A DNA stretch of 64,000 nucleotides. Origin: Haloprofundus salinisoli. Its GTDB lineage: Archaea > Halobacteriota > Halobacteria > Halobacteriales > Haloferacaceae. The notes beneath the pieces are model-generated. The model was not told where the DNA came from and made no database searches. It was given only the letters and a program-made list of their open reading frames with translations. Where the stretch lies: contig NZ_CP083663.1 in NCBI RefSeq assembly GCF_020097815.1, positions 620,001 to 684,000 on the forward strand, written 5' to 3'. The first letter of the stretch is position 1. Each line of letters begins with the position of its first letter. Below, one piece after another: positions 50,404 to 64,000 of the stretch. Made by a program: the position numbers and the translations under genes.

Positions 50404-50577
50404 ACCACTCGTTGCGTCGCTCGGCACTTCGCTCCTTCGCCCTCGGGACGGTGGGTAGCGGGGCGAACGCGGGAGTAGCGCGACGGCGACACCGACTCAC
50501 CGACACGCCCACGGCGTCGATTTCGGACGTTGCAACTAAGGGAAGACTCTTTACGCTCTTCGACAGTATCCCGGGGT

Positions 50578-51921
50578 ATGGGTTTGTTCGACCGACTGCG
50601 CGGTAACGACAATCCGCGTGTCGCTTTCATCGGTATCGACGGCGTCCCTTTCAGTCTTCTCGACGAACACCGCAACGAGTTCCCCAACTTCGCGCGTCTG
50701 GCCGACGAGGGCACCGCCGGAGCCATCGACAGCATCGTGCCCCCGGAGTCGAGCGCCTGCTGGCCCGCGCTGACGACGGGCGTCAACCCCGGTGAGACCG
50801 GTGTGTACGGCTTCCAAGACCGCGAAATCGGCTCCTACGACACCTACGTCCCGATGGGCCGCGACGTGCAGGCGTCCCGTCTGTGGGACCGCGTGAGCGA
50901 GGCGGGGATGAACGCGACGGTGATGAACGTCCCCGTCACGTTCCCCCCGCAGCGAAACGTCCAGCGGATGGTCTCTGGATTCCTCTCGCCGAGCGTCGAC
51001 AAGGCGTCGCAACCGGACGAACTCCGCGACACGCTCGAATCGATGGGCTACCGCATCGACGTGAACGCGAAACTCGGCCACCAGGAGGACAAAACCGAGT
51101 TCATCGAGGACGCCCACGACACCATCGAGAAGCGGTTCGAGGCGTTCTCGCACTACATCGAGCAGGACGACTGGGACCTCTTCTTCGGCGTGTTCATGAC
51201 GACCGACCGCCTCAACCACTTCCTGTTCAAAGACTACGAGCGCGACGGCCCGAACAAGCAGGCGTTCCTCGACTTCTACAAGAAGGTCGACGACTACATC
51301 GGCCAGATCCGGGAGATGCTCCCCGACGACGTCACGCTCGTCGTCGCCTCCGACCACGGGTTCACCTCGCTGGACCACGAGGTCCACTTCAACACGTGGC
51401 TCGAACAGGAGGGCTGGCTGAGCTACGAGGACGACGACCACTCCGAACTCGGCGACATCGCCGACGAGACGACGGCGTACTCGCTCATCCCCGGACGGTT
51501 CTACCTCAACCTCGAAGGCCGCGAACCCCGCGGTAGCGTCCCCGAGGAGGAGTACGAGGAGAAGCGCGCCGAACTCAAAGAGGCGCTCGAAAACCTCGAA
51601 GGCCCCGACGGTCGGAAGGTCTGCGAGCGCGTCGTCGAGCGCGAGGAGGCGTTCCGCGGTGACCACGAGGACATCGCGCCGGATCTCGTCGCCATCCCCG
51701 CCCACGGATTCGACCTCAAGGCCGGGTTCAAGGGTCACGACGAGGTGTTCGGCGTCGGCCCGCGAAACGGGATGCACAGCTTCGACAACGCGACGCTGTT
51801 CATCGACGACCCCGAGGCGAACATCGGCGAAGCGGACCTCTTCGACATCGCGCCGACCATCCTCGAACTGATGGAAATCGAGTACGAACGCGCGGAACTC
51901 GACGGCGCGAGTCTGGTTTAA
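50578..51921 (+). CDS. AlkP-superfamily nucleotide pyrophosphatase/phosphodiesterase-like enzyme
   Basis: A 447-residue protein of the alkaline phosphatase superfamily. RVAFIGIDGVPFSLLDEH (metal Asp in IGIDG) and ESSACWPALTTGVNPGETGVYGF (nucleophile Ser/Thr region) are followed by VVASDHGFTSLDHEVHFNTWL (DHG-x4-DHE pattern), VAIPAHGFDLKAGFKGHDEV and GPRNGMHSFDNATLFI (metal His in the C-terminal NGMHS block). It likely hydrolyses phosphate mono- or diesters; the substrate is unknown. The ATG at 50578 (MGLFDRLRGND) is chosen over an upstream one. Confidence 0.88.
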   Translation: MGLFDRLRGNDNPRVAFIGIDGVPFSLLDEHRNEFPNFARLADEGTAGAIDSIVPPESSACWPALTTGVNPGETGVYGFQDREIGSYDTYVPMGRDVQASRLWDRVSEAGMNATVMNVPVTFPPQRNVQRMVSGFLSPSVDKASQPDELRDTLESMGYRIDVNAKLGHQEDKTEFIEDAHDTIEKRFEAFSHYIEQDDWDLFFGVFMTTDRLNHFLFKDYERDGPNKQAFLDFYKKVDDYIGQIREMLPDDVTLVVASDHGFTSLDHEVHFNTWLEQEGWLSYEDDDHSELGDIADETTAYSLIPGRFYLNLEGREPRGSVPEEEYEEKRAELKEALENLEGPDGRKVCERVVEREEAFRGDHEDIAPDLVAIPAHGFDLKAGFKGHDEVFGVGPRNGMHSFDNATLFIDDPEANIGEADLFDIAPTILELMEIEYERAELDGASLV

Positions 51922-52198: not shown

Positions 52199-53278
52199 TT
52201 ACAACAGCGAGTCTATCTCGTCGTTGCTCCACATGTCGACCGGGTCGGGTTTCTCCTCTTCGGTCTCGTTCTGCGCTTGCTTCGCGCGCTCCATGAACTG
52301 TTGGAGGCGCTCGGAGCGTTCGACGCCGCCGAGCAGGATGAGCGCCGCGAGGCGGCCGCTTTCGAGCGGGAAGTCGCCGCCGCGGACCTGCAGGCTGCCG
52401 GTCTCCTCCTCGACCCATTTCCGCGCGCGCTCGACGCCTTTCCGCGAGATGGTCTCGGCCTGTCCCGCAACGACGACGAGCGCCGAGTCCGCATCGGTGG
52501 CTTCGGGGAGGCTCGTCCCGGTGAGAAGCGCCCGCCGGACGGTGCTCATGATGGTGTTGATGTTCTCTTCGGCCTCCTCGCTGGCCTCGGAGCTGGCGTA
52601 GCCGAGCGCCGCGACGCCGCCCGAGCGGAGCGTATTGATGATCTCGGAGGAGTCGACGACCGATTCGCCGACGCCCTCCGTCGCCTCGCCGGACGCGAGG
52701 AGCAGACCGACGCGCTGGGCGATGGCCTCGTTGATGGCGTCGAAGCCCTCCTCCATGCTCTCGCCGGAGGAACGCCACGCGTCGTTGTCGACGAGCAACA
52801 CCGAGTCGGCCTCGCGGGCGACGGTCTTCAGCGACCGGCCCGCGTTCACTTGGTACATCGAACCCTCGTTGCGGCCGGGGAGGATGCCGAGACCGTAAAC
52901 TGGCACGTCGTAGACGCGCTTGAGTTCCTTCACGAGGACGGGCATCCCGCCGCTGCCGGTGCCGCCGCCGAGGCCGGCGACGACGAAGATGGCCTCCGCC
53001 TCGGCGGTGATGCGGCCGTCGAGTTCGCCCATCACTTCGCGGGCGTCAGACTGCATCACTTCCGCACCGAGTTCGTTGTCGCCGCCGACGCCGTGGCCGT
53101 TTACTCGGTCTTGGCCGACGAGCACCGTGTCGAGCGGGAGCGGTTGGAGGTCTGTTTTCGCGCTGTTGACTGCGAGTGCGCCCCGGACTGCGCCGAAGCC
53201 CATCCGTGAATCGAACTCAGCCATCGCCGTGGCGAGTTTGCCGCCAGCTTGGCCTACACCTATCAGGACGGTTTTCAT
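52199..53278 (-). CDS. cetZ: CetZ tubulin/FtsZ-like GTPase
   Basis: A 359-residue cytoskeletal GTPase. MKTVLIGVGQAGGKLATAMAEF (T1), [21 protein letters not shown] (T4, the tubulin signature GGGTGSG), VLLVDNDAWRSSGESMEEG (tubulin-type T5/T7 features) and the DMWSNDEIDSLL C-terminus match CetZ rather than FtsZ. In haloarchaea CetZ proteins control cell shape, e.g. rod formation. The ATG at 53278 is used. Divergent from the pilus-like operon at 53356 with a 77 bp intergenic region, which raises a possible link to motility or envelope shape. Confidence 0.92.
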   Translation of the reverse strand: MKTVLIGVGQAGGKLATAMAEFDSRMGFGAVRGALAVNSAKTDLQPLPLDTVLVGQDRVNGHGVGGDNELGAEVMQSDAREVMGELDGRITAEAEAIFVVAGLGGGTGSGGMPVLVKELKRVYDVPVYGLGILPGRNEGSMYQVNAGRSLKTVAREADSVLLVDNDAWRSSGESMEEGFDAINEAIAQRVGLLLASGEATEGVGESVVDSSEIINTLRSGGVAALGYASSEASEEAEENINTIMSTVRRALLTGTSLPEATDADSALVVVAGQAETISRKGVERARKWVEEETGSLQVRGGDFPLESGRLAALILLGGVERSERLQQFMERAKQAQNETEEEKPDPVDMWSNDEIDSLL

Positions 53279-53355
53279 ATCTCCTTCTATCAGGGTCCCA
53301 CCTTCAAACTTCCCCCAGAGATTTATGAGAGAAAACGAGTCCAGAACCATACACG

Positions 53356-53853
53356 ATGCCCGACGAAACCGCGTGCCGAAGCGGCGTTTCGGTCCGCAGC
53401 GGCCGCGAAACCCGCCTCGAACGCCTCGAAACGCGACTCGACGCGGTCGAACGAGCGACGACGGGGACTGACATCTCGGTCGTAGACCTCTCTTCTGCCG
53501 CCGATCTGGACGCGCGGCTCACCGCCGTCGAAGAGCGCCTGTCGGAGTTCGACGACCGCCTTTCGGAACTCGACGCGGCGGTGCAAGCGCTCAGAGGGTA
53601 CGTCGGCGGCGTCAGGACGGTCAACCGGGCAGTCGAACGTCGCGCCGACGCGGCGCTCGCGGCCGTCGAGTCGCTGGAACGCGACCGGTCGGACGGAGAC
53701 GCCGTCGAGGAGATTCTCGACGCCGTCGAGACGGAGAGAGCGCCGCCTAAATCGACCGAATCGCTCGACTGTAGCGACGACACCGACGTCGACAACGACA
53801 CCGAAGGTGGAAACACGAGCGGACTCGCCGCCCGTCTCAAAGAGACGTGGTAA
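53356..53853 (+). CDS. Coiled-coil protein at head of secretion/pilus-like operon (DUF7310-like)
   Basis: A 165-residue acidic protein dominated by heptad repeats (RLERLETRLDAVERATT, RLTAVEERLSEFDDRLSELDAAVQALRGYV, AVERRADAALAAVESLERD). No transmembrane helix is visible. The recalled family is DUF7310 coiled-coil. Its stop overlaps the GTG start of the next gene, so it is translated first in the operon. A scaffold or regulator role with the ATPase is inference. Confidence 0.8.
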   Translation: MPDETACRSGVSVRSGRETRLERLETRLDAVERATTGTDISVVDLSSAADLDARLTAVEERLSEFDDRLSELDAAVQALRGYVGGVRTVNRAVERRADAALAAVESLERDRSDGDAVEEILDAVETERAPPKSTESLDCSDDTDVDNDTEGGNTSGLAARLKETW

Positions 53854-54329
53854 CGCGACTCGTCGTCGCTGTCGCGCTCGCAGTCGCCCTCGTCGCCGCG
53901 TCGCTTCCCGCCGTCGACGCCGCCCGCGAGGAGCGGACGAAAGCCCGCCTCGACGCCGAACTCACGCGCGTCGCCGACGCCGCACGGAGCCTCCCCGAGA
54001 CCGAAGACGCCGCCGGCGACACGTCGCTGGCCGCCCGTCGCGTCGTCGCCGTCTCCGTCCCCGAGCGGTCGCTGACGACTGCGTCCGTCGACTACGTCGA
54101 ACTGGCCGGTGGAGACGTCTCGGTCGGTGCTTCGTTCAGCTACCGACTCGCCGGCCGCGAAGAGACGACGCATCGCCTCACCGGCGTTCCACTCTCGACA
54201 CCGACCGGTCCGGTTCGACTCTCTGCGACGGGCACGCAGCGACTCGCCCTCTCGCTCGTCGAACGCGGCCGAGGACGACTCGTGACGCTCCGCCGTCTCG
54301 AAGCCGACGACGTCGGGGGAGCGGCCTGA
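53847..54329 (+). CDS. Small N-terminally anchored/secreted protein (DUF7311-like)
   Basis: A 160-residue protein. The N-terminal helix LVVAVALAVALVAASLPAVDAAREERTKA reads as a signal anchor or secretion signal. A beta-rich exported domain follows (VVAVSVPERSLTTASVDYVEL, ASFSYRLAGREETTHRLTG). The GTG at 53847 overlaps the previous stop. It precedes the ATPase gene by 33 bp and belongs to the same operon; the DUF7311 label is recalled. Confidence 0.75.
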   Translation: MVTRLVVAVALAVALVAASLPAVDAAREERTKARLDAELTRVADAARSLPETEDAAGDTSLAARRVVAVSVPERSLTTASVDYVELAGGDVSVGASFSYRLAGREETTHRLTGVPLSTPTGPVRLSATGTQRLALSLVERGRGRLVTLRRLEADDVGGAA

Positions 54330-54362
54330 AGTTCAAGTACGGTGAGGCGACCACCCCGCCGC

Positions 54363-56348
54363 ATGCGACTGCTCTCACGGTTCGGAGTCGGGGACGAACC
54401 CGCGGACGAAGCCGAGAAGACGGACTGCCGCTGTGACCCGTCGTTCGTCGAACCGAGCGGCACCGGCGTCGGTCGCCGCGTCGAGCTCGTCGTCGACGCC
54501 GACGACTGTCCCGGCGGCGGCGACTTGGTCGCCGACCCCGCCTGTCGAGCGACCGTCGTCGACGCACTCGCAGAGCGCGACGCCGACGTCGTGCGTACCC
54601 ACTCTCGCGGGTACGAACGGAGATACGACGGAGACGCGGCGGCACTGCTGCTCGCCGCCGGACGGTTCGTCGAGCGGGCGGCCGTCCACGACCCGACGCT
54701 CGCCGAGCGGGCGCGGCGCGACCCCCTCGGCGCGGCGCGGCAGGCGACCGGACGCGCCGGACCGGTGAAGCGAATCGCCGCCGAAACCGGTCTCTCGGAG
54801 GGGGCGGTCCGCGCATCGGGGTACGAAGACTCGCTCCGGCCGTTCGTCGGACCGGCGCTCATGCGTTCGCGCGTTGCGCTCCGACCGCCACCGGGGTCGA
54901 CTCTCGTCGACCGCCGGTCGCTCGACGACGACACGACCGTTCGTCGGTACGAACGCGACGGCGGCCGGGACTGGTATCAGCTCGACCCTGCGTTCACCGA
55001 ACTCGACCGGTCGGCCACTGCGACGCTCGCGGAGGCGCGAAGCGTGCTGGCTGACGGCGTCGGCGGCGCGGGCGAGCGAGCACCGGGCCGGGCGGTCCGC
55101 GCCGTCGTCGCCGAACACCGACACGACGGCAGCAACGCCGGCGGCGACGGCAGCGCCGGCAGCGACGAGACCGACGAGACCAACGGCGCCGACGCGCCAT
55201 CGGTGGAGCGGCTCTCGTCGCTCTTGGCGAAACATACACACGGCCACGGCGTCCTCGACGACCTGTTTTCGGACGCTCGGGTCTCGGACGTGTTCGTGAC
55301 CGCGCCCGTCGAGTCGAATCCGGTTCGGGTCGTCGTCGACGGCGAGCGCCTCGACACGAACGTTCGACTGACCCGGTCGGGTGCGGCGGCGCTGGCGTCG
55401 CGGTTCCGGCGGACGAGCGGCCGGCCGTTCTCGAAGGCGGACCCGACGCTGGACGCGGTGGTCGACGCCGAGGGAGGTCGAATCCGCGTCGCCGCCGTCT
55501 CGACCCCGGCGAGCGACGGCCTCGCGTTCGCGTTCCGCCGACACGACGGCGCACCGCTGACGCTCCCGGCGCTCGTCGCCAACGATACGCTCTCGGCTGA
55601 TGCCGCCGCGCTGCTCTCGCTTTCGGTCGAACGCGGGGCCGCCGGACTCGTCGCCGGCACCCGTGGAGCGGGGAAGACGACGCTGCTCGGGGCCCTGCTG
55701 TGGGAACTGCCGATGGCGTCGCGGACGGTAGTGGTCGAGGATACGCCGGAACTGCCGGTCGACGCGCTCCAGCGCCACGACCGCGAGGTCCAGACGCTCT
55801 ACGTCGACGTCGGTGACGGGGCGACGCTCACGCCGACGGGCGGCGTCCGGACGGCGCTTCGGCTCGGCGAGGGCGCACTCGTCGTCGGCGAGGTCCGCGG
55901 CGAGGAGGCCGCCGCCCTGTACGAGGCGATGCGCGTCGGTGCGAGCGGGAGCGCCGTCCTCGGGACGATTCACGGCGACGGCGGCGCGGCGGTCAGAGAG
56001 CGGGTCGTCTCGGACTTCGGCGTTCCCGAGTCCTCCTTTGCGGCGACGGACCTCGTGGTGACGCTCTCGTCGAGCGGCGGGCGACACGTCGCCCGAATCG
56101 AGGAGCTCCGCGTGAGCGACGCGGGCGTCCGGTTCGTGACGCTGTTCGAGTACGCCGACGGCGCACTTCGCCCGACGGGCGTGGTCGAGCGAGGTAACAG
56201 CGCGCTCGTCGACGCGCTCGCCGGACCGGGCGAGCGATACGCCGACGTTCGACAGGCGCTCGGAACGCGGCGACAGTCGCTCCGAGCGCTCGCCGACGGC
56301 GACCGGACGCGACCGGCGGACGTCGTCGCTGCGTACGAGCACCGATGA
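54363..56348 (+). CDS. PilB/VirB11-type secretion ATPase with cysteine-bearing N-terminal domain
   Basis: A 661-residue type II/IV secretion ATPase. Walker A is GTRGAGKTTLLG with Lys at ~438. The Asp box VVVEDTPEL, the Walker B-like region ALVVGEVRGEEAAALYEAMR and the His box GSAVLGTIHGDGG follow. The N-terminal ~260 residues are unusual: TDCRCDPSF and DDCPGGGDLVADPACRA hold four cysteines within ~45 residues, then an acidic/Ser-rich linker (residues ~235-280). It would power a pilus-like or secretion apparatus together with the TadC-like gene that overlaps its stop by 4 bp. Confidence 0.88.
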   Translation: MRLLSRFGVGDEPADEAEKTDCRCDPSFVEPSGTGVGRRVELVVDADDCPGGGDLVADPACRATVVDALAERDADVVRTHSRGYERRYDGDAAALLLAAGRFVERAAVHDPTLAERARRDPLGAARQATGRAGPVKRIAAETGLSEGAVRASGYEDSLRPFVGPALMRSRVALRPPPGSTLVDRRSLDDDTTVRRYERDGGRDWYQLDPAFTELDRSATATLAEARSVLADGVGGAGERAPGRAVRAVVAEHRHDGSNAGGDGSAGSDETDETNGADAPSVERLSSLLAKHTHGHGVLDDLFSDARVSDVFVTAPVESNPVRVVVDGERLDTNVRLTRSGAAALASRFRRTSGRPFSKADPTLDAVVDAEGGRIRVAAVSTPASDGLAFAFRRHDGAPLTLPALVANDTLSADAAALLSLSVERGAAGLVAGTRGAGKTTLLGALLWELPMASRTVVVEDTPELPVDALQRHDREVQTLYVDVGDGATLTPTGGVRTALRLGEGALVVGEVRGEEAAALYEAMRVGASGSAVLGTIHGDGGAAVRERVVSDFGVPESSFAATDLVVTLSSSGGRHVARIEELRVSDAGVRFVTLFEYADGALRPTGVVERGNSALVDALAGPGERYADVRQALGTRRQSLRALADGDRTRPADVVAAYEHR

Positions 56349-58141
56349 GCGCCGAGAACCACGTTTCGACGGCGGCCGACATCGTCCGGGCGCTCGCCCG
56401 ACTGGCACCCGTCGACGTCGACACCAGTCGGCCGCTCGCCGACGCGCTGAGCTATCTCGACGCGCCGGTGTCGGGCGAGACGGTCGTCCGAGGCGGCTAC
56501 GGGGCCGCCGTCGTCGTCGCGTTCTGCTCGCTCCCCGCCGTCACGCTCCTCGCGCCTCCGCTCGTCGCCGTCGCCGCCGCGTTCGGTTGCGGCCTCGCCG
56601 GCGCTCACGTCATCCACCGCGCCCCGGTGCTCCTCGCACGCACGCGTCGAGCGGGAGCGCTCGGCGACGCCGCCGGCGTCGTCAACCGGGTCGTGCTACG
56701 CCTTCGGCTGGACCCAACCGCCGAGCGGGCGGCGGTGTTCGCGGCCCGGACCGGTCGAGGACCGCTCGCAGCGAGTCTCGCGGCACACGTCCGCCGCGCC
56801 CGCGGAACGCCGGACTCGGGGCTGGCGGCGTTCGGCGACGAGTGGGCCGATCGCCTCCCGGCCCTCGGACGGGCAACGACGTTGTTGCTCGCCAGCGCGG
56901 CGGCGACGCCGGGCGAACGCGAGCGCGGACTGGAGCGCGCGCTCGACACCGTTCTCGACGGGACGCGGGACCGACTCGCGCGCTTCGCCGACGACGTGCG
57001 CGCGCCGCTGTCCGGACTGTACGCGTTCGGCGTCCTGCTCCCGTTGGCGCTCGTCGGAGTGCTCCCGGCAGCGTCGAGCGCCGGCGTTCCCGTCGACACG
57101 CCGGCGCTGGTCGTCGTCTACGACGTGGTCCTCCCGCTCGGACTGTTCTGTGCGGTCGTGTGGCTCGTCAGTCGCCGGCCCGTCGCCTTCTCGCCGCCCC
57201 GAGTCGACCTCGACCATCCCGACGCGTCGGTCGCCCCCCGGGAGTACCTCGCCGTCGTGGCGGTTGTACTCGCGGGAATCGCCGTGAGCGGGACCGCCAT
57301 CGGGCTGTGGAGCGCGCCGCTCGTCGCCGTCGGCGGCCTCATCGGCGGGTCGCTCGTCGTCCGCTACCAACCGGCCAGACGGGTACACGCGCACGTTCGA
57401 CGCGTCGAATCCGGACTCGACGACGCGCTGTATCTCGTCGGTCGTCACGTCGTCGAAGGCGTCGCCGTCGAACGTGCACTGGACCGCGTCGCCGACGAAC
57501 TCGACGGCGCGACCGGCGAGATGCTGGCCGACGCGGTGACGACCCAGCGGGCGCTCCGCGTCGACGTCCGCGCCGCCTTCTTGGGCGAGGACGGAGCGCT
57601 CGCGACGATTCCGAGCCCGCGCGCGAGAAGCGCGGCCGAACTGCTGGCACTGGCGGCGACGGAGGGCGAACCTGCGGGGGCGGCGCTCGTCGCCACGGCG
57701 GAGCAACTTAATCGCCTCCGACGTCTCGAGCGAGAAGCGCGCCGTGAGCTATCCGAACTCACCGAAACGCTGCAGAACACCGGCGCGCTGTTCGGCCCCC
57801 TCGTCGGCGGGGCGACGGTGGCGTTGGTCGAACGACTGGCCGGCGTCTCGTCGTCGACGGCGACCTCCGCGTTCGGGACGGGAGCGATGGACGCAGCGAC
57901 CACCGCCGCCGAATCGGCGCCCGCAGCGGGTTCGTCGCTGGCGGGCCCGCCGGAAACCGCGACGTTCGGCCTCACCGTCGGCACGTACGTGCTCCTCTCG
58001 GCAGTGCTTCTGACCGCCCTGGCGACGGCTATCGAACACGGGCTCGACCGCGTGCTTCTCGGTTACCGAATCGGACTCGCGCTGCTCGCGGCGACGACGA
58101 CGTACCTCGCGGCCTTCGTCGCCGCGAGTCTCCTCGTGTGA
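56345..58141 (+). CDS. TadC/PilC-type secretion system F-domain membrane protein
   Basis: A 598-residue polytopic protein. It has two F-domain halves (for example GVVNRVVLRLRLDPTAERAAVFAAR and ALYLVGRHVVEGVAVERALDRV), each followed by hydrophobic helices. Typical F-domain lengths are ~400, so this is the longer tandem form found in archaeal type IV filament machines. It starts ATGA inside the end of the ATPase gene. It would be the membrane platform on which the filament or secretion subunit is assembled. Confidence 0.85.
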   Translation: MSAENHVSTAADIVRALARLAPVDVDTSRPLADALSYLDAPVSGETVVRGGYGAAVVVAFCSLPAVTLLAPPLVAVAAAFGCGLAGAHVIHRAPVLLARTRRAGALGDAAGVVNRVVLRLRLDPTAERAAVFAARTGRGPLAASLAAHVRRARGTPDSGLAAFGDEWADRLPALGRATTLLLASAAATPGERERGLERALDTVLDGTRDRLARFADDVRAPLSGLYAFGVLLPLALVGVLPAASSAGVPVDTPALVVVYDVVLPLGLFCAVVWLVSRRPVAFSPPRVDLDHPDASVAPREYLAVVAVVLAGIAVSGTAIGLWSAPLVAVGGLIGGSLVVRYQPARRVHAHVRRVESGLDDALYLVGRHVVEGVAVERALDRVADELDGATGEMLADAVTTQRALRVDVRAAFLGEDGALATIPSPRARSAAELLALAATEGEPAGAALVATAEQLNRLRRLEREARRELSELTETLQNTGALFGPLVGGATVALVERLAGVSSSTATSAFGTGAMDAATTAAESAPAAGSSLAGPPETATFGLTVGTYVLLSAVLLTALATAIEHGLDRVLLGYRIGLALLAATTTYLAAFVAASLLV

Positions 58142-58175
58142 GGGTTTAAACCGGAGAACACGACCAACCTGCTTC

Positions 58176-58646
58176 ATGCTCGACACACCTGTGGACGCGT
58201 GGTACACGTGGCTCGGACTCGCTCTCGCGGGCGTTGCGATGGTGGGAACCGCGCTGTCGTTCCCGACCGCGGCAGCGCCCGACGCGGCGGGCGTCGCCGA
58301 CACCGTCGACGCCGTCGCCGCCAGCGAGTACGCGACGACGGCCGAACATCCGCTGGACGCAGCGGCGATACGGCTCGGACCTCATCGCGTGAGTCTCCGT
58401 AGCGACGGCGGGACGACGCACGCGGCGTTCGCGTTCGGACCCGTGACGCCCGTCCAATCGGGGTCACGACTCGAATCCGTGCTCTACGGCGTCGCCCCCG
58501 AGGAGGCCTTCGACAGTCGACGAGCGTTCACGCAGGCGCTCGTGGAGGCGCGAACCGCGGATCCGACGTGGCGGACGGTGGAGCGTACGCTCGTCGTGCG
58601 CCGAGTCGAGTGGGGGGAGAGAGATGCTACGCTCGTCGGCGCGTGA
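58176..58646 (+). CDS. Single-helix pseudopilin-like protein 1 (DUF7283-like)
   Basis: A 156-residue protein. WYTWLGLALAGVAMVGTALSFPTAAAPDAAGV is one N-terminal helix; an exported beta-rich domain follows (GPHRVSLRSDGGTTHAAFAFG, VQSGSRLESVLYGV). Ends with RTLVVRRVEWGERDATLVGA. No classical R/K-G|xxxxE prepilin cleavage motif is visible. It overlaps the next gene by 23 bp. Comparable to minor pseudopilins, but that is inference. Confidence 0.72.
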   Translation: MLDTPVDAWYTWLGLALAGVAMVGTALSFPTAAAPDAAGVADTVDAVAASEYATTAEHPLDAAAIRLGPHRVSLRSDGGTTHAAFAFGPVTPVQSGSRLESVLYGVAPEEAFDSRRAFTQALVEARTADPTWRTVERTLVVRRVEWGERDATLVGA

Positions 58647-59058
58647 GGAGAAGGGGGCGCGTCGCGCGCAGGCGGAGTCGACGACCGCACTCGTCGCCGT
58701 CTTCGTCATCGTCGTCGCACTGTCGCTGTACGCCGTCGTCTTCGACGGTGTGAAGCCGACGGAGACGCGCGCGCTCGCCGACCCGATGCTCGAACGCGTC
58801 TCGGGCGAACTAACCGACGACGGCGTCGCCGACCCGACGGCGCTCGATGACACCCGCGACGCCGCTCCGGACGGGTACTCGCTGAACGTCTCGCTCGCCG
58901 TCGGCGAACACCGATGGACCGTCGGACCGCCGGTCCCGACGGAGCGGACGCACCCCGCCCGCGAACGCAGTCTCGACGGAGCGACCCGTCGGCTAAGCGT
59001 CCGTCTCCGACCCGGAGTCGTCCGGCCCGGTCGTCTCCGGGTGGCGGTGTGGCGATGA
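58624..59058 (+). CDS. Single-helix pseudopilin-like protein 2 (DUF7285-like)
   Basis: A 144-residue protein. RRAQAESTTALVAVFVIVVALSLYAVVF is a basic-then-hydrophobic start like a pilin or TadE helix, with Glu near the helix start (RRAQAE). The remaining ~100 residues are exported. TGA overlaps the next ATG. The residues around the cleavage position do not match the strict prepilin peptidase consensus. Confidence 0.75.
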   Translation: MLRSSAREEKGARRAQAESTTALVAVFVIVVALSLYAVVFDGVKPTETRALADPMLERVSGELTDDGVADPTALDDTRDAAPDGYSLNVSLAVGEHRWTVGPPVPTERTHPARERSLDGATRRLSVRLRPGVVRPGRLRVAVWR

Positions 59059-59921
59059 CGAGCAGCGTCCTCGACGCGACGCTCTGTCTGCTACTCGTCA
59101 GCGCCGCGGCGGTGACACTCGTGGACGTGTCGCCGCGCCCCGAGCGCACCGACGTCGACGCGTCAGAGGCGGCGGAGACGCTCTCGACGAGCACCGCCGA
59201 AATCGAATACAGCCTCGCGAGCGGTGCGCGCCGTGCGGGCGACTCCGAGCGGTTTCCCGCGACCGACGGCCCGGCGTTCGGCCGGCACGCCCACGGCACG
59301 TTCGCACAGTTACTGGCCGAGTCGACGCTGGCGACGCCGACGGTCGGCGGCGAGCGCGTGACGCACGCCGGCGACGACTTCCGTCGACGCGTTCGCGCGG
59401 CCGTCGCTCGGTCGCTGCCGCCGCGGACGCACGTCGTCGCGGAGTGGCGACCGCACCCCGGTTCGAGCGTCACTGCGACGACAGCTCTCGGCGAGGAACC
59501 GCCGGCGTCGGCCGACGTTCACGTCGCCGTCCTGTCGGTGCCGACGGGGAGCGAGATCGACGACGACGCGGCCGCTCGACGCGCGATCTCCGAGGGGTTC
59601 GCGGGCGTCGCAACGGTCGTCAGTGAACGCCTCGTACGAACGTGGTTTCCGCCGAGACGGGCTCGACTGGCGCTCGGCGACGACTATCCCGCGTCGGCGC
59701 TCGTCCGGCATCGTTACCGACGAACGGCCGAGCTCGCGGGAGCGACGCTGCCGCCGACGCTGAACCGCTCGACGGTCTCGGCGGCGAACGCCCGACTCGT
59801 CTCGGCGCTGGAACCGCGCGTCGAAGCGGACCTGCGGGAGCGGTTCGACTCGCCGTCGTCGGCCGCCGTCGCGCTCTCTGACGGAGAGGTCCAAATCACC
59901 GTTCGGCGGTGGTCGGCGTGA
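59055..59921 (+). CDS. Pseudopilin-like protein 3, larger exported domain (DUF7284-like)
   Basis: A 288-residue protein. The first helix (VLDATLCLLLVSAAAVTLVD) starts the chain; the rest is mostly extracytoplasmic with VAEWRPHPGSSVTATTALG, RLVRTWFPPRRARLALGDDYP and a C-terminal AVALSDGEVQITVRRW. ATGA overlaps the previous gene; its own stop overlaps the GTG of the giant gene. All genes of this operon are so tightly packed that they were probably kept together by function. Confidence 0.75.
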   Translation: MTSSVLDATLCLLLVSAAAVTLVDVSPRPERTDVDASEAAETLSTSTAEIEYSLASGARRAGDSERFPATDGPAFGRHAHGTFAQLLAESTLATPTVGGERVTHAGDDFRRRVRAAVARSLPPRTHVVAEWRPHPGSSVTATTALGEEPPASADVHVAVLSVPTGSEIDDDAAARRAISEGFAGVATVVSERLVRTWFPPRRARLALGDDYPASALVRHRYRRTAELAGATLPPTLNRSTVSAANARLVSALEPRVEADLRERFDSPSSAAVALSDGEVQITVRRWSA

Positions 59922-62900
59922 GCGACGGCGCGAGCGCCGCCGACTTTCTCGACGGCGAACGCGGGCGCGTCCCGTTCGCGCTCGTCGGCGTCTTGCTGCT
60001 CGTGACGAGTTCGGCGTTCGCCGCGACGCTCGGTGGTCCCGCGCCGACGCGCGACGACGACGTGGAGACGGCGATAGAACGCGTCGGCGCGGAATCGGTC
60101 ACCGCGCTTCGCGTCGCCGCCGACGAAGCTGCTGCCGACGCGGCGGCGAACCCCGTAACGGCGCGAGCACAGACGCCCGCCGGGAAGGTACTCAACGAGT
60201 CGTCGCCGTTCGTCGACTCGCTGCGCATTCGCCTCTACCTCGCGGCGCGGGAGCGCTTCGAGCGGACGGCGTACCGTCGAAACGACGTGACGACTACAGT
60301 ATCCATTCCACCGGTTCGGAACGTCTCGGAGCTCCGACGGGCCAAACGCGCGGTCACCGTCGAACGCGTCGACGAGGGGACGGCGATGCGCGTCACGCTC
60401 GAAAACGTGACGCGGACCGCGAGGCGCGACGGCCGGGTCGTCGCCACGCGGACCGATTCGCTGACCGTGACCGTGACGAAGCCGGTGCTTCTCGCGCACG
60501 ACAGAACCGAATCGTTCGAGGCGCGACTCGACCGTTCGGCGCTCGCCGGACCCGGACTGGACCGTCGACTGACCGCGCGGCTGTATCCGGTCGCGTGGGC
60601 GCGAGGCTACGCGCAGAACCGCGGCGCGCCCATCGAGAACGTCGTCTCGAATCGCCACGTCAGCCTGTCGACGAACACCGGCGTCGTCGCCGTGCAGCGG
60701 GCGACGTTCGGGCGAAGCGACCCGGCGGCCCGACGCGGCGTCGAACGGGCGACGATGCGCGTCGGCGCGGCGGACCTGCTGGAACCGGCCCCGTCCGAGG
60801 CCGGACGGGTGGCGGATGCGGTGCTCGCCCCGCCGAACGATCCGACGGCTCCGGAAGCAGACGCCCCGGTACCGACGACGGCGTCAAGAGAGAAACGGTC
60901 GCTCACCGTCGGCGTCAACCGGACCGCAGACGTCGCGTTCGTTTCGCTGCTCGACGGCGAACCGATAGCCGGCGCCGGGTCGAACGAGCCGTCGTTAGCC
61001 GAGACGCTGGAGGCGGCGTACCGCGTCGACGCCCACCTCTCAACGCGGGTCGTACAGACGCATAAGGGGACGCCGAAACGCCCCGCCGCGCCCGGTCGCA
61101 ACTGGAGTCGCGCGGATGTCGAGACGCGGACCCGAATCTCCGTGTTCGGGGGCGACGCCGCGGTGCCGAAAGCGACCGGCACACGCACCGAGACGGCGAC
61201 TCGGCGGGTCGTCCGCCGTCACGTCCGGACCGCGACGTGGCGACGGGGCAACGAGACCCGGACGACGCGGGCGACGTGGACCGACCGCTACCGCGTCGGC
61301 GTCGCGCTCGGCGTCGAACGTCGGTCGCTCGACGGCGTTCCCGCCCGACCGGTCACCCCCGAGTTCGAACGCGGCGGTGCGCTCGACGGCCCGAACCTCG
61401 GAGACGTTCCCGAGCGTGCGTGGTCGAAAACGGTTGAACGCCGCGGGGGCGTCGACGCCGTGTCTCGCCGCGCCGTCGAGAGTTTCCGGTCGGACGGCGC
61501 GACGGACGCGAGAACGGCGACGGTCACCGGTCAGCGTCCCGAGCGACTCGGGTCGTGGGTGTACGACGACCTCTCGGCGTTCAGAGAGCGCCTCCGAGAC
61601 GTGAGCCTCGAACTCGACGCGACGCGCGTCGCAACCGGCGTGGCGAACCCGCCCGCGGAACTGGCCGCCGAGCTCCGGTCGCGGCGGACGGAACTACTCG
61701 ACCCCCCCGAGACGTACGACGGGGCGGCCGACCGAGCGCGCGCCGCCGCGCGGGCGGCGTATCTCGAACGGGTGCTCCGCCACCTCGACCGGCGGGCCGA
61801 CCGGACGGCAGCGCGAAACGACCGATTGGGCGAGACGCTGGCCGACAGGGGGTCGACGGCGTCGTCGCCGTCCGAGCTCGGTCGACTCGTCGAAGCCGCC
61901 GAGAAGGCGGCCGCCCCCGAACCGCGGACGTTCGGAGAGCGAGCCCCCGGCAGCGACGTCGCACTCTACCCCGACGGGTCGCCGGCGTACCTCACGCTCG
62001 CCACCGTCGAACGGACGCACGCGCCGACGACTCCGGCGAACGCTAGCTATCGACCGCTGACCGCGCGAAACACGAATCTCGTGACGGCACCGTACGGCGA
62101 CGTCGCCGACACCGTCGTCGACGGAGCGGTGGGCCGGTCGAAGCGGGTGAGCCTCCGAACCGGGGGACAGGTGCTCGTGGTGGCGAACCGGACCGCCGCC
62201 GCGACCGGAAACGAGACGCTCGACGAGCGACGGCACCGGCTCGGAACCGAAGTCGCAGACGGCGTCGACGTGACGAAAGAGGCGGCGCGAACGACGCTCA
62301 GAGAGGAGACGTCGCTCACGGCAGCGGAGCGCCGTCTCGTCGTCGACCGGGGGTTCGCCCGGTGGGACGGCCACGGGCAGCGGGCGCTCGCCGCAGTCAA
62401 CGCCTCGGCGGCGACGGCTATCGCCGAACGGGTCGGAGCGCGGCGAGACTGGCGCGACCGACGGACCGACCGCGTCGCGGTTCGACTTCGGTCGTCGATG
62501 CTCGTCGCCGCTCGCAGCGACGCCGCACGGGTACGGCGACGACCTACGAAGCGTGCCTCGGCGGCGACGCAGTGGCTCGCCCGGCGAAGCAAGAAGAAAC
62601 TCGAAGCCGGCCTGAAAAACGGAACCGAACGAGCGGCGGACAGAGTCCGAGAACGGGCCAGAGACCGCCTCGAAGGCGCGAGATGGGAAGACGAGGCGCT
62701 CGTCGGCGTCCCCTCCGGACTGCCGGTCGCGCCCGCCCCGGGCTACTGGTACGCGACGGTCAACGTCTGGACCGTCGAGGTCCGCGGCGAGTACGCGCAG
62801 TTCGTCGTCACCGCGCGACGCGGTCCGGCCGGGTCGAGCGACCTCCGGTACGTCCGCGACGGTGGCGCGGTGACGTTCGATGTGGACGGCGACGGCGAGG

Positions 62901-63064
62901 CCGAGCGACTAGGTCGGAGCGAACGCATCTCGTTCGAGGCGCAGACGACCGTCGTCGTGGCCGTCCCTCCGACGCCGCCGGGTGTCGGCGACGTCGACGG
63001 CGACGCCGACGAGCGGTCCGGCGGGTGGCCGAATCCGGGATGCGAACCGGAGCGACGGTGCTGA
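59918..63064 (+). CDS. Giant N-terminally anchored protein (DUF7286-like)
   Basis: A 1048-residue protein. An N-terminal helix (VPFALVGVLLLVTSSAFAATLGG, residues ~17-40) precedes ~1000 residues that are exported. A long Arg/Ala-rich helical section with heptads lies near residues 560-760 and 800-920. The C-terminal region includes PVAPAPGYWYATVNVWTVEV, then FDVDGDGEAERLG (calcium-loop-like DxDGDG), a Pro/Gly-rich stretch and GCEPERRC. Start GTG at 59918 overlaps the previous stop. No enzymatic motif is recognised. It could be the surface structural or adhesive partner of the secretion machine. Confidence 0.78.
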   Translation: MSDGASAADFLDGERGRVPFALVGVLLLVTSSAFAATLGGPAPTRDDDVETAIERVGAESVTALRVAADEAAADAAANPVTARAQTPAGKVLNESSPFVDSLRIRLYLAARERFERTAYRRNDVTTTVSIPPVRNVSELRRAKRAVTVERVDEGTAMRVTLENVTRTARRDGRVVATRTDSLTVTVTKPVLLAHDRTESFEARLDRSALAGPGLDRRLTARLYPVAWARGYAQNRGAPIENVVSNRHVSLSTNTGVVAVQRATFGRSDPAARRGVERATMRVGAADLLEPAPSEAGRVADAVLAPPNDPTAPEADAPVPTTASREKRSLTVGVNRTADVAFVSLLDGEPIAGAGSNEPSLAETLEAAYRVDAHLSTRVVQTHKGTPKRPAAPGRNWSRADVETRTRISVFGGDAAVPKATGTRTETATRRVVRRHVRTATWRRGNETRTTRATWTDRYRVGVALGVERRSLDGVPARPVTPEFERGGALDGPNLGDVPERAWSKTVERRGGVDAVSRRAVESFRSDGATDARTATVTGQRPERLGSWVYDDLSAFRERLRDVSLELDATRVATGVANPPAELAAELRSRRTELLDPPETYDGAADRARAAARAAYLERVLRHLDRRADRTAARNDRLGETLADRGSTASSPSELGRLVEAAEKAAAPEPRTFGERAPGSDVALYPDGSPAYLTLATVERTHAPTTPANASYRPLTARNTNLVTAPYGDVADTVVDGAVGRSKRVSLRTGGQVLVVANRTAAATGNETLDERRHRLGTEVADGVDVTKEAARTTLREETSLTAAERRLVVDRGFARWDGHGQRALAAVNASAATAIAERVGARRDWRDRRTDRVAVRLRSSMLVAARSDAARVRRRPTKRASAATQWLARRSKKKLEAGLKNGTERAADRVRERARDRLEGARWEDEALVGVPSGLPVAPAPGYWYATVNVWTVEVRGEYAQFVVTARRGPAGSSDLRYVRDGGAVTFDVDGDGEAERLGRSERISFEAQTTVVVAVPPTPPGVGDVDGDADERSGGWPNPGCEPERRC

Positions 63065-63129: not shown

Positions 63130-63561
63130 ATGCTCTACGACGCTGCGGAGAACCCCGGGTCGTTGACGCCGAACGAGTTGCGCGCCGCCTACGATTCGCA
63201 GTTGGCTGCCGTCGTCGACGCGGTCGGTGTCGAGACCGTCGCCGCCGAGTCGGGCGTCGACCGGGACCGAGTCGCCGCCCTGACGGACGGCGAGTCGCCG
63301 GAGCTCACGCTCGAAGAGGCCGCCGGTATCCTCGCCGCGAGCGACGACTACCCCGACCGGGAGGCTATCGTCCTCGAACTGCGCGACCACCTCCTGATGG
63401 GGATGACGACGGGCGTCCTCGACGTGGACGTTATCGCCTCGAACATCGACGCCGACCTCACCGGCCAAGAAGTCCAGCAGGCGCTCGAAGGCCGCATCGT
63501 GTTCCCGCTCGACGACCTCGCGGCGGTCCACGCGTTCATCGCCGAGCGGAACGACCGGTGA
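63130..63561 (+). CDS. DUF5791-like haloarchaeal protein
   Basis: A 143-residue helical protein. It begins MLYDAAENPGSLTPNELRAAYD, then AVVDAVGVETVAAESGVDRD, LEEAAGILAASDDYPDREAIVLELRDHLLMGM and VDVIASNIDADLTGQEVQQA. No motif is recognised; the DUF number is recalled. The ATG follows the giant gene by 65 bp. Its TGA overlaps the GTG of the truncated SDR gene. Confidence 0.8.
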   Translation: MLYDAAENPGSLTPNELRAAYDSQLAAVVDAVGVETVAAESGVDRDRVAALTDGESPELTLEEAAGILAASDDYPDREAIVLELRDHLLMGMTTGVLDVDVIASNIDADLTGQEVQQALEGRIVFPLDDLAAVHAFIAERNDR

Positions 63562-64000
63562 CGAGCGACGCAACCGGCGACGGAGAGGGAAAGCGCGTCG
63601 TCGTCCTCGGCTGCGGCTACGTCGGCCTCGAACTCGGCCGTCAGTTGACCGCGTCGGGCCACGACGTGGTCGGCGTCCGCCGCTCCGACGACGGCCTCGA
63701 CGCTGTCGAATCGGCGGGGTTCGAGGCCGTCCGCGCGGACGTGACCGACGCGGCGTCGCTCGCGTCGGTACCGGACGCCGACTGGCTCGTCTTCGCGGCG
63801 AGTTCCGGCGGACGCGACGCCGACACCGCTCGGGAGGTGTTCGTCGAAGGGCAGGAGACGGCGCTCTCGGCGTTCTTCGAGCGAGACGACGCGCCCGAGC
63901 GCTACGTCTACACGTCGAGCACCGGCGTCTACGGTGACCACGATGGCGACTGGGTCGACGAGGAGACCGAAATCGAGCCGACGACGGAGAAGACGCGAGT
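63558..64000 (+). CDS. NAD-dependent epimerase/dehydratase (SDR), truncated by window edge
   Basis: The visible 147 residues begin at GTG 63558 and run off the window. RVVVLGCGYVGLELGRQLTASGHDVVGVRRSD is a NAD(P)-binding Rossmann motif (GxGxxG), then ADVTDAASLASVPDADWLVF and VYTSSTGVYGDHDGDWVDEE, which is the SDR catalytic Ser/Tyr neighbourhood (Ser-Ser-Thr-Gly-Val-Tyr-Gly). The catalytic Tyr-x3-Lys and substrate region fall beyond the edge. It could be YeeZ-like or sugar epimerase; the visible part cannot decide. Confidence 0.85.
   Translation, partial: MTSDATGDGEGKRVVVLGCGYVGLELGRQLTASGHDVVGVRRSDDGLDAVESAGFEAVRADVTDAASLASVPDADWLVFAASSGGRDADTAREVFVEGQETALSAFFERDDAPERYVYTSSTGVYGDHDGDWVDEETEIEPTTEKTR

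Follow-up and report, generated by a model that had tools for sequence, protein, structure and literature searches.

A conserved eight-gene haloarchaeal operon probably encodes the motor and surface parts of a type IV pilus and is co-inherited with an unlinked pilin

The window analysed here is a 64,000-nucleotide stretch of Haloprofundus salinisoli DNA (NCBI RefSeq assembly GCF_020097815.1, contig NZ_CP083663.1, positions 620,001 to 684,000). At positions 53356-63064 it carries an operon of eight co-directional plus-strand genes, which encode, in order, DUF7310, DUF7311, a secretion ATPase, a T2SSF/TadC-like platform, DUF7283, DUF7285, DUF7284, and DUF7286 (Pfam families). A preliminary description of the window had proposed eight tightly packed same-strand genes here, and all open reading frames (ORFs) were recovered at the positions it gave, together with their Pfam families and junctions:

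53356..53853, plus strand: DUF7310 coiled-coil protein, 165 amino acids (aa), predicted cytosolic (PF23991, 4.5e-29); first operon gene in 62 of the 80 loci introduced below
53847..54329, plus strand: DUF7311, 160 aa, one N-terminal helix, pilin-like topology, no leader (PF23993, 1.1e-39)
54342..56348, plus strand: type IV filament secretion ATPase of the PilB2 type, at most 668 aa (T2SSE, PF00437, 2.8e-17)
56345..58141, plus strand: TadC/T2SSF-like membrane platform of the PilC2 type, 598 aa (PF00482, 2e-4; position after the ATPase)
58176..58646, plus strand: DUF7283, 156 aa, one N-terminal helix (PF23954, 9.3e-57)
58624..59058, plus strand: DUF7285, 144 aa, class III prepilin-like N terminus, RRA/QAESTTALVAVF (PF23956, 1.7e-34)
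59055..59921, plus strand: DUF7284, 288 aa; its pilin-like N-terminal helix contains an invariant Asp (PF23955, 2.8e-88)
59909..63064, plus strand: DUF7286, 1048-1051 aa, anchoring N-terminal helix after ERGRVPFALVGV (PF23957, E = 0, 1176 bits)

The seven junctions, as read from the sequence, are a 7-bp overlap, a gap of 12 or 33 bp, an ATGA overlap, and a 34-bp gap, followed by a 23-bp overlap, an ATGA overlap, and a GTGA overlap. The two gap lengths correspond to two candidate starts of the ATPase, GTG 54342 and ATG 54363; DUF7286 has 1048 aa when read from GTG 59918. The T2SSF match of the platform (21.8 bits) lies slightly below the Pfam cut-off of 25.2 bits, and a phmmer search of this protein against the PDB gave no useful match. 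Long ORFs alone are common in high-GC DNA, and we regard these as real genes because their order is conserved.

Conservation was assessed in 80 named haloarchaeal loci, the best 80 from a species-genome scan with a DUF7286 alignment and hence a sample biased toward DUF7286-bearing loci. The full eight-gene order is intact in 62 of them, which bears out the proposal of one operon around a secretion ATPase and its platform; several of the non-intact loci end at contig ends. In Natronosalvus (L173) the arrangement is a true rearrangement, CetZ-DUF7285-7284-7286, with neither ATPase nor platform adjoining (CetZ being the tubulin-like product of a neighbouring gene described below). The same genes stand beside CetZ, again with no adjoining ATPase or platform, in G282 (L093), where an ATPase of this type (4F, after the pilus subclade discussed below) is missing from the whole genome. 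In G286 the set is split, with DUF7310-7311-ATPase-TadC-DUF7283 at one site and DUF7285-7284-7286 beside CetZ at another. In Halorussus ruber (L147), the operon is in pieces that have been rearranged about CetZ, ATPase-TadC coming after the 143-aa gene described below. Stops or frameshifts break DUF7286 in Halegenticoccus soli (L051/L161), and the G004 copy (L003) contains one TAG, through either sequencing error or decay.

The ATPase combines a canonical Walker A motif (GTRGAGKTT) with a Cys-bearing N-terminal domain, in which Cys29, Cys31, Cys56, and Cys68 (a CxC motif and two more cysteines) are invariant in 21/21 haloarchaeal orthologs; five non-haloarchaeal relatives carry CxxC motifs. 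In the phylogenetic tree, those ATPases of DUF7286-bearing genomes that score high with the window profile group together in a single clade (support 100/99), separate from their same-genome paralogs. Their P-loop reads GxxGAGKT (GGRGCGKT in one row of the alignment), whereas that of the paralogs is mostly GGTASGKT. The window ATPase scored far below the cut-offs of three equivalog models: FlaI/ArlI of the archaellum (87 bits against 550), the TadA family of the bacterial Tad pilus (TIGR03819; 123.5 bits against 373), and VirB11 of type IV secretion (58.7 bits against 250). The archaellum ATPase ArlI of this genome is a separate gene, scoring 847 bits.

The preliminary description had also suggested a haloarchaea-specific system, and here our survey points the other way. 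Among 295 Halobacteriota genomes, over which the co-occurrence of DUF7286, ATPase, and pilin was counted (G000 being the window genome, and families carrying numbers rather than names), DUF7286 is found in 76, many of them non-haloarchaeal and including Methanosarcinaceae-type and other families. Methanosarcina acetivorans, a named control, matches as well, and a related ATPase accompanies DUF7286 in the non-haloarchaeal genomes. Methanogen-type loci combine DUF7286 with DUF7285/DUF7284 relatives and a DUF7311 homologue in the haloarchaeal order, the ATPase and TadC being encoded elsewhere in the genome. DUF7311 is homologous to the methanogen gene (hhalign 97.6%, E = 4e-12), and DUF7283 gives a weak match to its positional counterpart (26%, E = 7e-4). 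The gene set is not confined to haloarchaea.

At three methanogen-type loci (L084, L083, and L085), a secreted protein of ~205 aa follows DUF7286, with a weak BatD-like match in L083 (E = 0.004). A MoxR-DUF58-BatA gene group lies near the DUF7286 locus in L084.

The operon is inherited together with a pilin encoded at a distance. This stand-alone PilA-like protein (PF24107, DUF7382) lies at G000:C1:980119-980562, ~300 kb from the operon, and was searched for in the same genomes using relatives aligned with the window-genome copy. With presence called at E<=1e-3 for DUF7286, E<=1e-70 for the ATPase, and E<=1e-8 for the pilin, all three occur in 70 genomes, none in 216, and a partial set in 9. 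For the ATPase and pilin as a pair, both are present in 72 genomes, neither in 217, and each without the other in 3. The earlier claim that the exported proteins go with the ATPase stands, and the picture of a machine without pilins does not, since this pilin co-varies with the operon. Among haloarchaea, the pilin is found in 39/39 genomes with the ATPase and in 2/14 listed without it (G124 and G282), whereas DUF7287, a control pilin-like family from another pilus system, is present in 12 of the same 14; the phi coefficient against the ATPase is 0.95 for the pilin and 0.66 for the control. In G047, G056, and G247 the pilin lies a few kb from the 4F-type ATPase (~2.2 kb in G047).

A congener of H. 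salinisoli, G002, lacks the operon. Alignment with G001 showed that CetZ is intact and that ~8.4 kb are gone, as far as a decayed remnant of DUF7286 (L052, C1 ~2134 kb). A second, separate 1.1-kb deletion ~340 kb away (L248, C1 ~2474 kb) has removed the first half of the pilin gene and the first two thirds of an adjoining HerA-like gene. This double deletion hits both unlinked parts of the system; coming from one genome, it is suggestive rather than decisive.

On the N termini of the exported proteins, the preliminary description, which reported no standard prepilin signal, has to be revised: DUF7285, DUF7286, and many DUF7284 relatives have prepilin-like N termini. Motifs were counted with ad hoc patterns rather than FlaFind, and cleavage is predicted only. 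In DUF7285, R[AG]x(x)[EASPND]P lies just ahead of the hydrophobic stretch in 75/80 loci, for example DRGQVEPLAALVAVF; the window protein reads RRAQAESTTALVAVF, with S replacing P. DUF7286 carries R[AG]x[VI]PF in all named loci except the broken L161 pieces, and DUF7284 carries R[AG][VI]STxxD in 22/80. In 53/80 loci (46 + 7), the start-codon residue and one or two further residues of DUF7284 are followed by the conserved Asp segment, as if the leader had been dropped, and Asp7 (D7) is invariant in the alignment. The window DUF7284 begins at the post-leader residues of other genera (MTSSVLD against DRG/VSTVLD), leaving a leaderless, pilin-like protein in this genus. A prepilin peptidase is indeed missing from the locus, as had been noted, but the genome holds a single PibD-type gene (PF01478 and PF06847; G000:C1 ~1487 kb), far from the operon, so its absence here is no argument against a pilus.

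AlphaFold2 models were obtained for two of the proteins. In the confident DUF7284 model (pLDDT 92.9), the N-terminal helix is joined to a body of mixed alpha/beta structure; the DUF7286 model (pLDDT 81.7) also has a helix at its N terminus and combines long helices with several beta regions. The best VIA Z values, 6.5 for DUF7284 and 5.8 for DUF7286, are within the range of common arrangements, and the lack of a structural match does not indicate a new fold. A role of either protein as a minor pilin is suggested by the N-terminal helix and gene context, not by fold.

Taken together, the operon probably encodes the dedicated motor and the membrane and surface parts of an archaeal type IV pilus of the halobacterial 4F (PilB2/C2) kind, with further parts supplied in trans. 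From the observed gene content, conserved order, co-occurrence, co-deletion, motifs, and two protein models, we infer the following biochemical roles. The ATPase would drive the TadC-like platform, which would lift a class III pilin from the membrane. The filament is probably built mainly from the stand-alone DUF7382 pilin, which the single PibD peptidase would cut. DUF7285, DUF7284, DUF7283, and DUF7311 may serve, via their N-terminal helices, as minor pilins or base proteins, while the membrane-anchored and mainly extracellular DUF7286 could form a collar, tip, or adhesin. DUF7310 would be a cytosolic coiled-coil adaptor, and the HerA-like ATPase encoded beside the pilin a further part of the system.

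Several observations weigh against this assignment. Haloarchaeal DUF7283 and DUF7311 have no class III leader, in addition to the leaderless DUF7284 of this genus, and neither the DUF7284 nor the DUF7286 model gave a significant match to PDB structures (best Foldseek E ~0.1). G282 and G124 retain the pilin without the ATPase, both systems being incomplete and decaying in appearance. For the 4F placement in particular, the ATPase tree, in which two long branches were flagged, compares these ATPases with paralogs of the same genomes rather than with published 4F reference sequences. The genomes share ancestry and are not independent samples, so Fisher P values are not valid probabilities, and the link between pilin and operon rests for this reason on repeated joint absence and on the G002 co-deletion. 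Finally, we found in the literature consulted no report of a filament, a transcript, or a protein product of this operon.

The HerA-like gene raises the question of what such a pilus would do. It lies at G000:C1:980657-981784 as the divergent neighbour of the pilin (PF05872, 7e-9; PF01935, 1.2e-5), and the nearest solved relatives of its product are HerA proteins, with TrwB matching weakly. It adjoins the pilin in the window genome and in 8/16 other loci examined. In G047 and G056 it is close to the ATPase, and in G286 it stands immediately upstream of DUF7310. Among 22 chosen genomes, it occurs in 11/12 with the system and is absent from 8/8 without it; it is truncated in G002 and apparently also in G282 (a partial match). 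The main texts of the literature we found on these pili do not mention such a partner, and it is apparently an unreported component of the pilus system.

One possibility, attractive but unlikely at present, is that the pilus may serve DNA uptake or exchange, making contact while the HerA-like ATPase pumps DNA. CedB/VirB4-like ATPases are thought to pump DNA in crenarchaeal DNA import (PMC9905601), and the linkage, absence, and truncation patterns above speak for such a role. Against it, no CedA-like channel, relaxase, or nuclease was seen, in analyses that included no search aimed at them, and the HerA-like protein is short and could serve another job. Moreover, three Methanosarcinaceae-type genomes carry it unlinked and 36-40% identical, of uncertain orthology, and none was found in G247. 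This idea is compatible with the pilus assignment, and the probabilities we attach to the two overlap because a DNA-exchange pilus is still a pilus. A more far-reaching version, in which the operon, the unlinked pilin, and a HerA-like DNA pump would form a split Halobacteriota-wide pilus for DNA uptake or cell-to-cell exchange, with CetZ2 positioning it in haloarchaea, strikes us as improbable.

A different reading dispenses with a long pilus: the five anchored proteins would form a short, non-filamentous secretion or pseudopilus complex for exporting or displaying cargo, whether DUF7286 or another protein. The exported proteins are all single-copy and do not resemble typical pilins, several of them lack leaders, and the confident alpha/beta model of DUF7284 is not recognisably that of a pilin. 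However, the PilA-like pilin co-occurs and decays with the operon and the DUF7285 N terminus is of the prepilin type, which makes this reading decidedly improbable. It is very hard to credit that the operon is a mobile module recently gained beside cetZ2, as its patchy presence suggested to the authors of PMC9856176: the flanks do stay joined where it is absent (PMC9856176; L052), but G002 lost the operon by deletion, with part of DUF7286 left behind, Natronosalvus and G282/G286 retain DUF7285-7284-7286 beside cetZ, and the gene set and ATPase are widespread in other Halobacteriota families, in an analysis that included no search aimed at integrases or flanking repeats.

Read as a type IV pilus operon, the uncharacterised pilB2/C2 locus becomes a testable system with a named likely filament protein. 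The gene groups of this system, which lie at separate sites (operon, pilin, and probably HerA-like gene), persist or disappear together. The giant anchored DUF7286 and its partners are no haloarchaeal oddity. Natural DNA exchange is known in this group, and we know of no machinery described for it there; the HerA-like partner poses the question of whether this pilus moves DNA.

The operon is flanked by conserved genes:

52199..53350, minus strand: cetZ2-type tubulin-like gene, divergent neighbour (PF21011, 1.3e-67; PF00091, 3.2e-28)
63130..63561, plus strand: conserved 143-aa neighbour with no Pfam match; right after DUF7286 in 73/80 loci
63558..63998, plus strand: NAD-dependent epimerase/dehydratase in the arCOG03095 position, cut by the window end (PF01370, 1.6e-10); conserved neighbour

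In 51/80 loci CetZ is the immediate, divergently oriented neighbour of DUF7310. In the window the gene probably starts at 53278 and so shares ~77 bp of upstream DNA with the operon, and synteny (PMC9856176) suggests subfamily cetZ2. The 143-aa gene occupies the position of arCOG04674, a predicted transcription factor; we treat it as a neighbour rather than a proven part of the operon because it still lies beside cetZ where the operon was lost (L052). Two genes that resemble each other lie near cetZ, at window 50530-51921 and at L214:11769-13130; their product starts MGLFDRLRG... and looks phosphodiesterase/pyrophosphatase-like by eye.

This operon is not a new discovery, having been predicted from comparative genomics (PMC4858521, PMC9856176). 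Makarova 2016 (PMC4858521) describes a halobacterial type IV pilus subclade, 4F, whose ATPase often has a Cys-rich N-terminal domain and which in halobacteria has a unique coiled-coil protein together with a neighbour of the FtsZ family. In Brown & Duggin 2023 (PMC9856176), cetZ2 adjoins a pilB2/C2 regulon, and arCOG04674 and an epimerase are found there as well; their tally of one surface protein and seven predicted genes of the pilus, among them pilB2 and pilC2, fits the eight genes here. By its own terms, the preliminary description would be refuted by a described pilus operon holding exactly these families with a known function: the gene content does appear in these two papers, with no function attached. 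Our literature search found no functional study of the operon and no paper naming these DUF families. The pil-2 locus of Halobacterium salinarum (PMC4292770) was rejected as the same locus, since its 6.9-kb, seven-gene transcript is too short for DUF7286, and we accordingly draw no evidence from its FlaFind prepilins. Papers naming HVO_0739-0744, guessed Haloferax locus tags, concern unrelated genes.

The closest likeness is to 4F as set out in PMC4858521. Shared traits are the Cys-bearing N-terminal ATPase domain, the TadC partner, the halobacterial coiled-coil protein, the FtsZ/CetZ-family neighbour, the surface protein, and a PilA-family major pilin mostly encoded alone; PibD is likewise present in the genome. 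DUF7310 is probably the equivalent of the coiled-coil arCOG07564, an identity matched, like that of the pilin with arCOG02981, by description rather than direct comparison. Haloferax PilB2 has been assigned to 4C rather than 4F (PMC6491452); we favour 4F because the coiled-coil and CetZ features are present. The main text of PMC4858521 is silent on a HerA-like partner, genome-wide pilin co-occurrence counts, and co-deletion, and what our analysis adds to the earlier descriptions is the tight tie between the operon and one particular unlinked pilin, along with the co-deletion, the non-haloarchaeal spread, and the HerA-like gene.

The pilB2/C2 regulon (PMC9856176) shares the neighbours cetZ2, arCOG04674, and epimerase, and a make-up of ATPase, platform, predicted pilins, and one surface protein. 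A recent, possibly mobile gain is suggested there; in our comparison, by contrast, one congener lacks the operon through deletion, and Natronosalvus has some of its genes beside cetZ. The PilB3/C3-PilA system of Haloferax volcanii (PMC4858521; PMC6491452) is similar in pairing an ATPase and platform with pilins and PibD that are both supplied in trans; it differs in its ATPase, of clade 2, in the P-loop distinction from paralogous ATPases noted above, and in a locus that encodes no pilins. Crenarchaeal Ced/Ted DNA import (PMC9905601) likewise joins a HerA/VirB4-family ATPase with a pilin, but is of type IV secretion origin with VirB2/VirB6-like parts, whereas the system described here has a PilB-type assembly motor.

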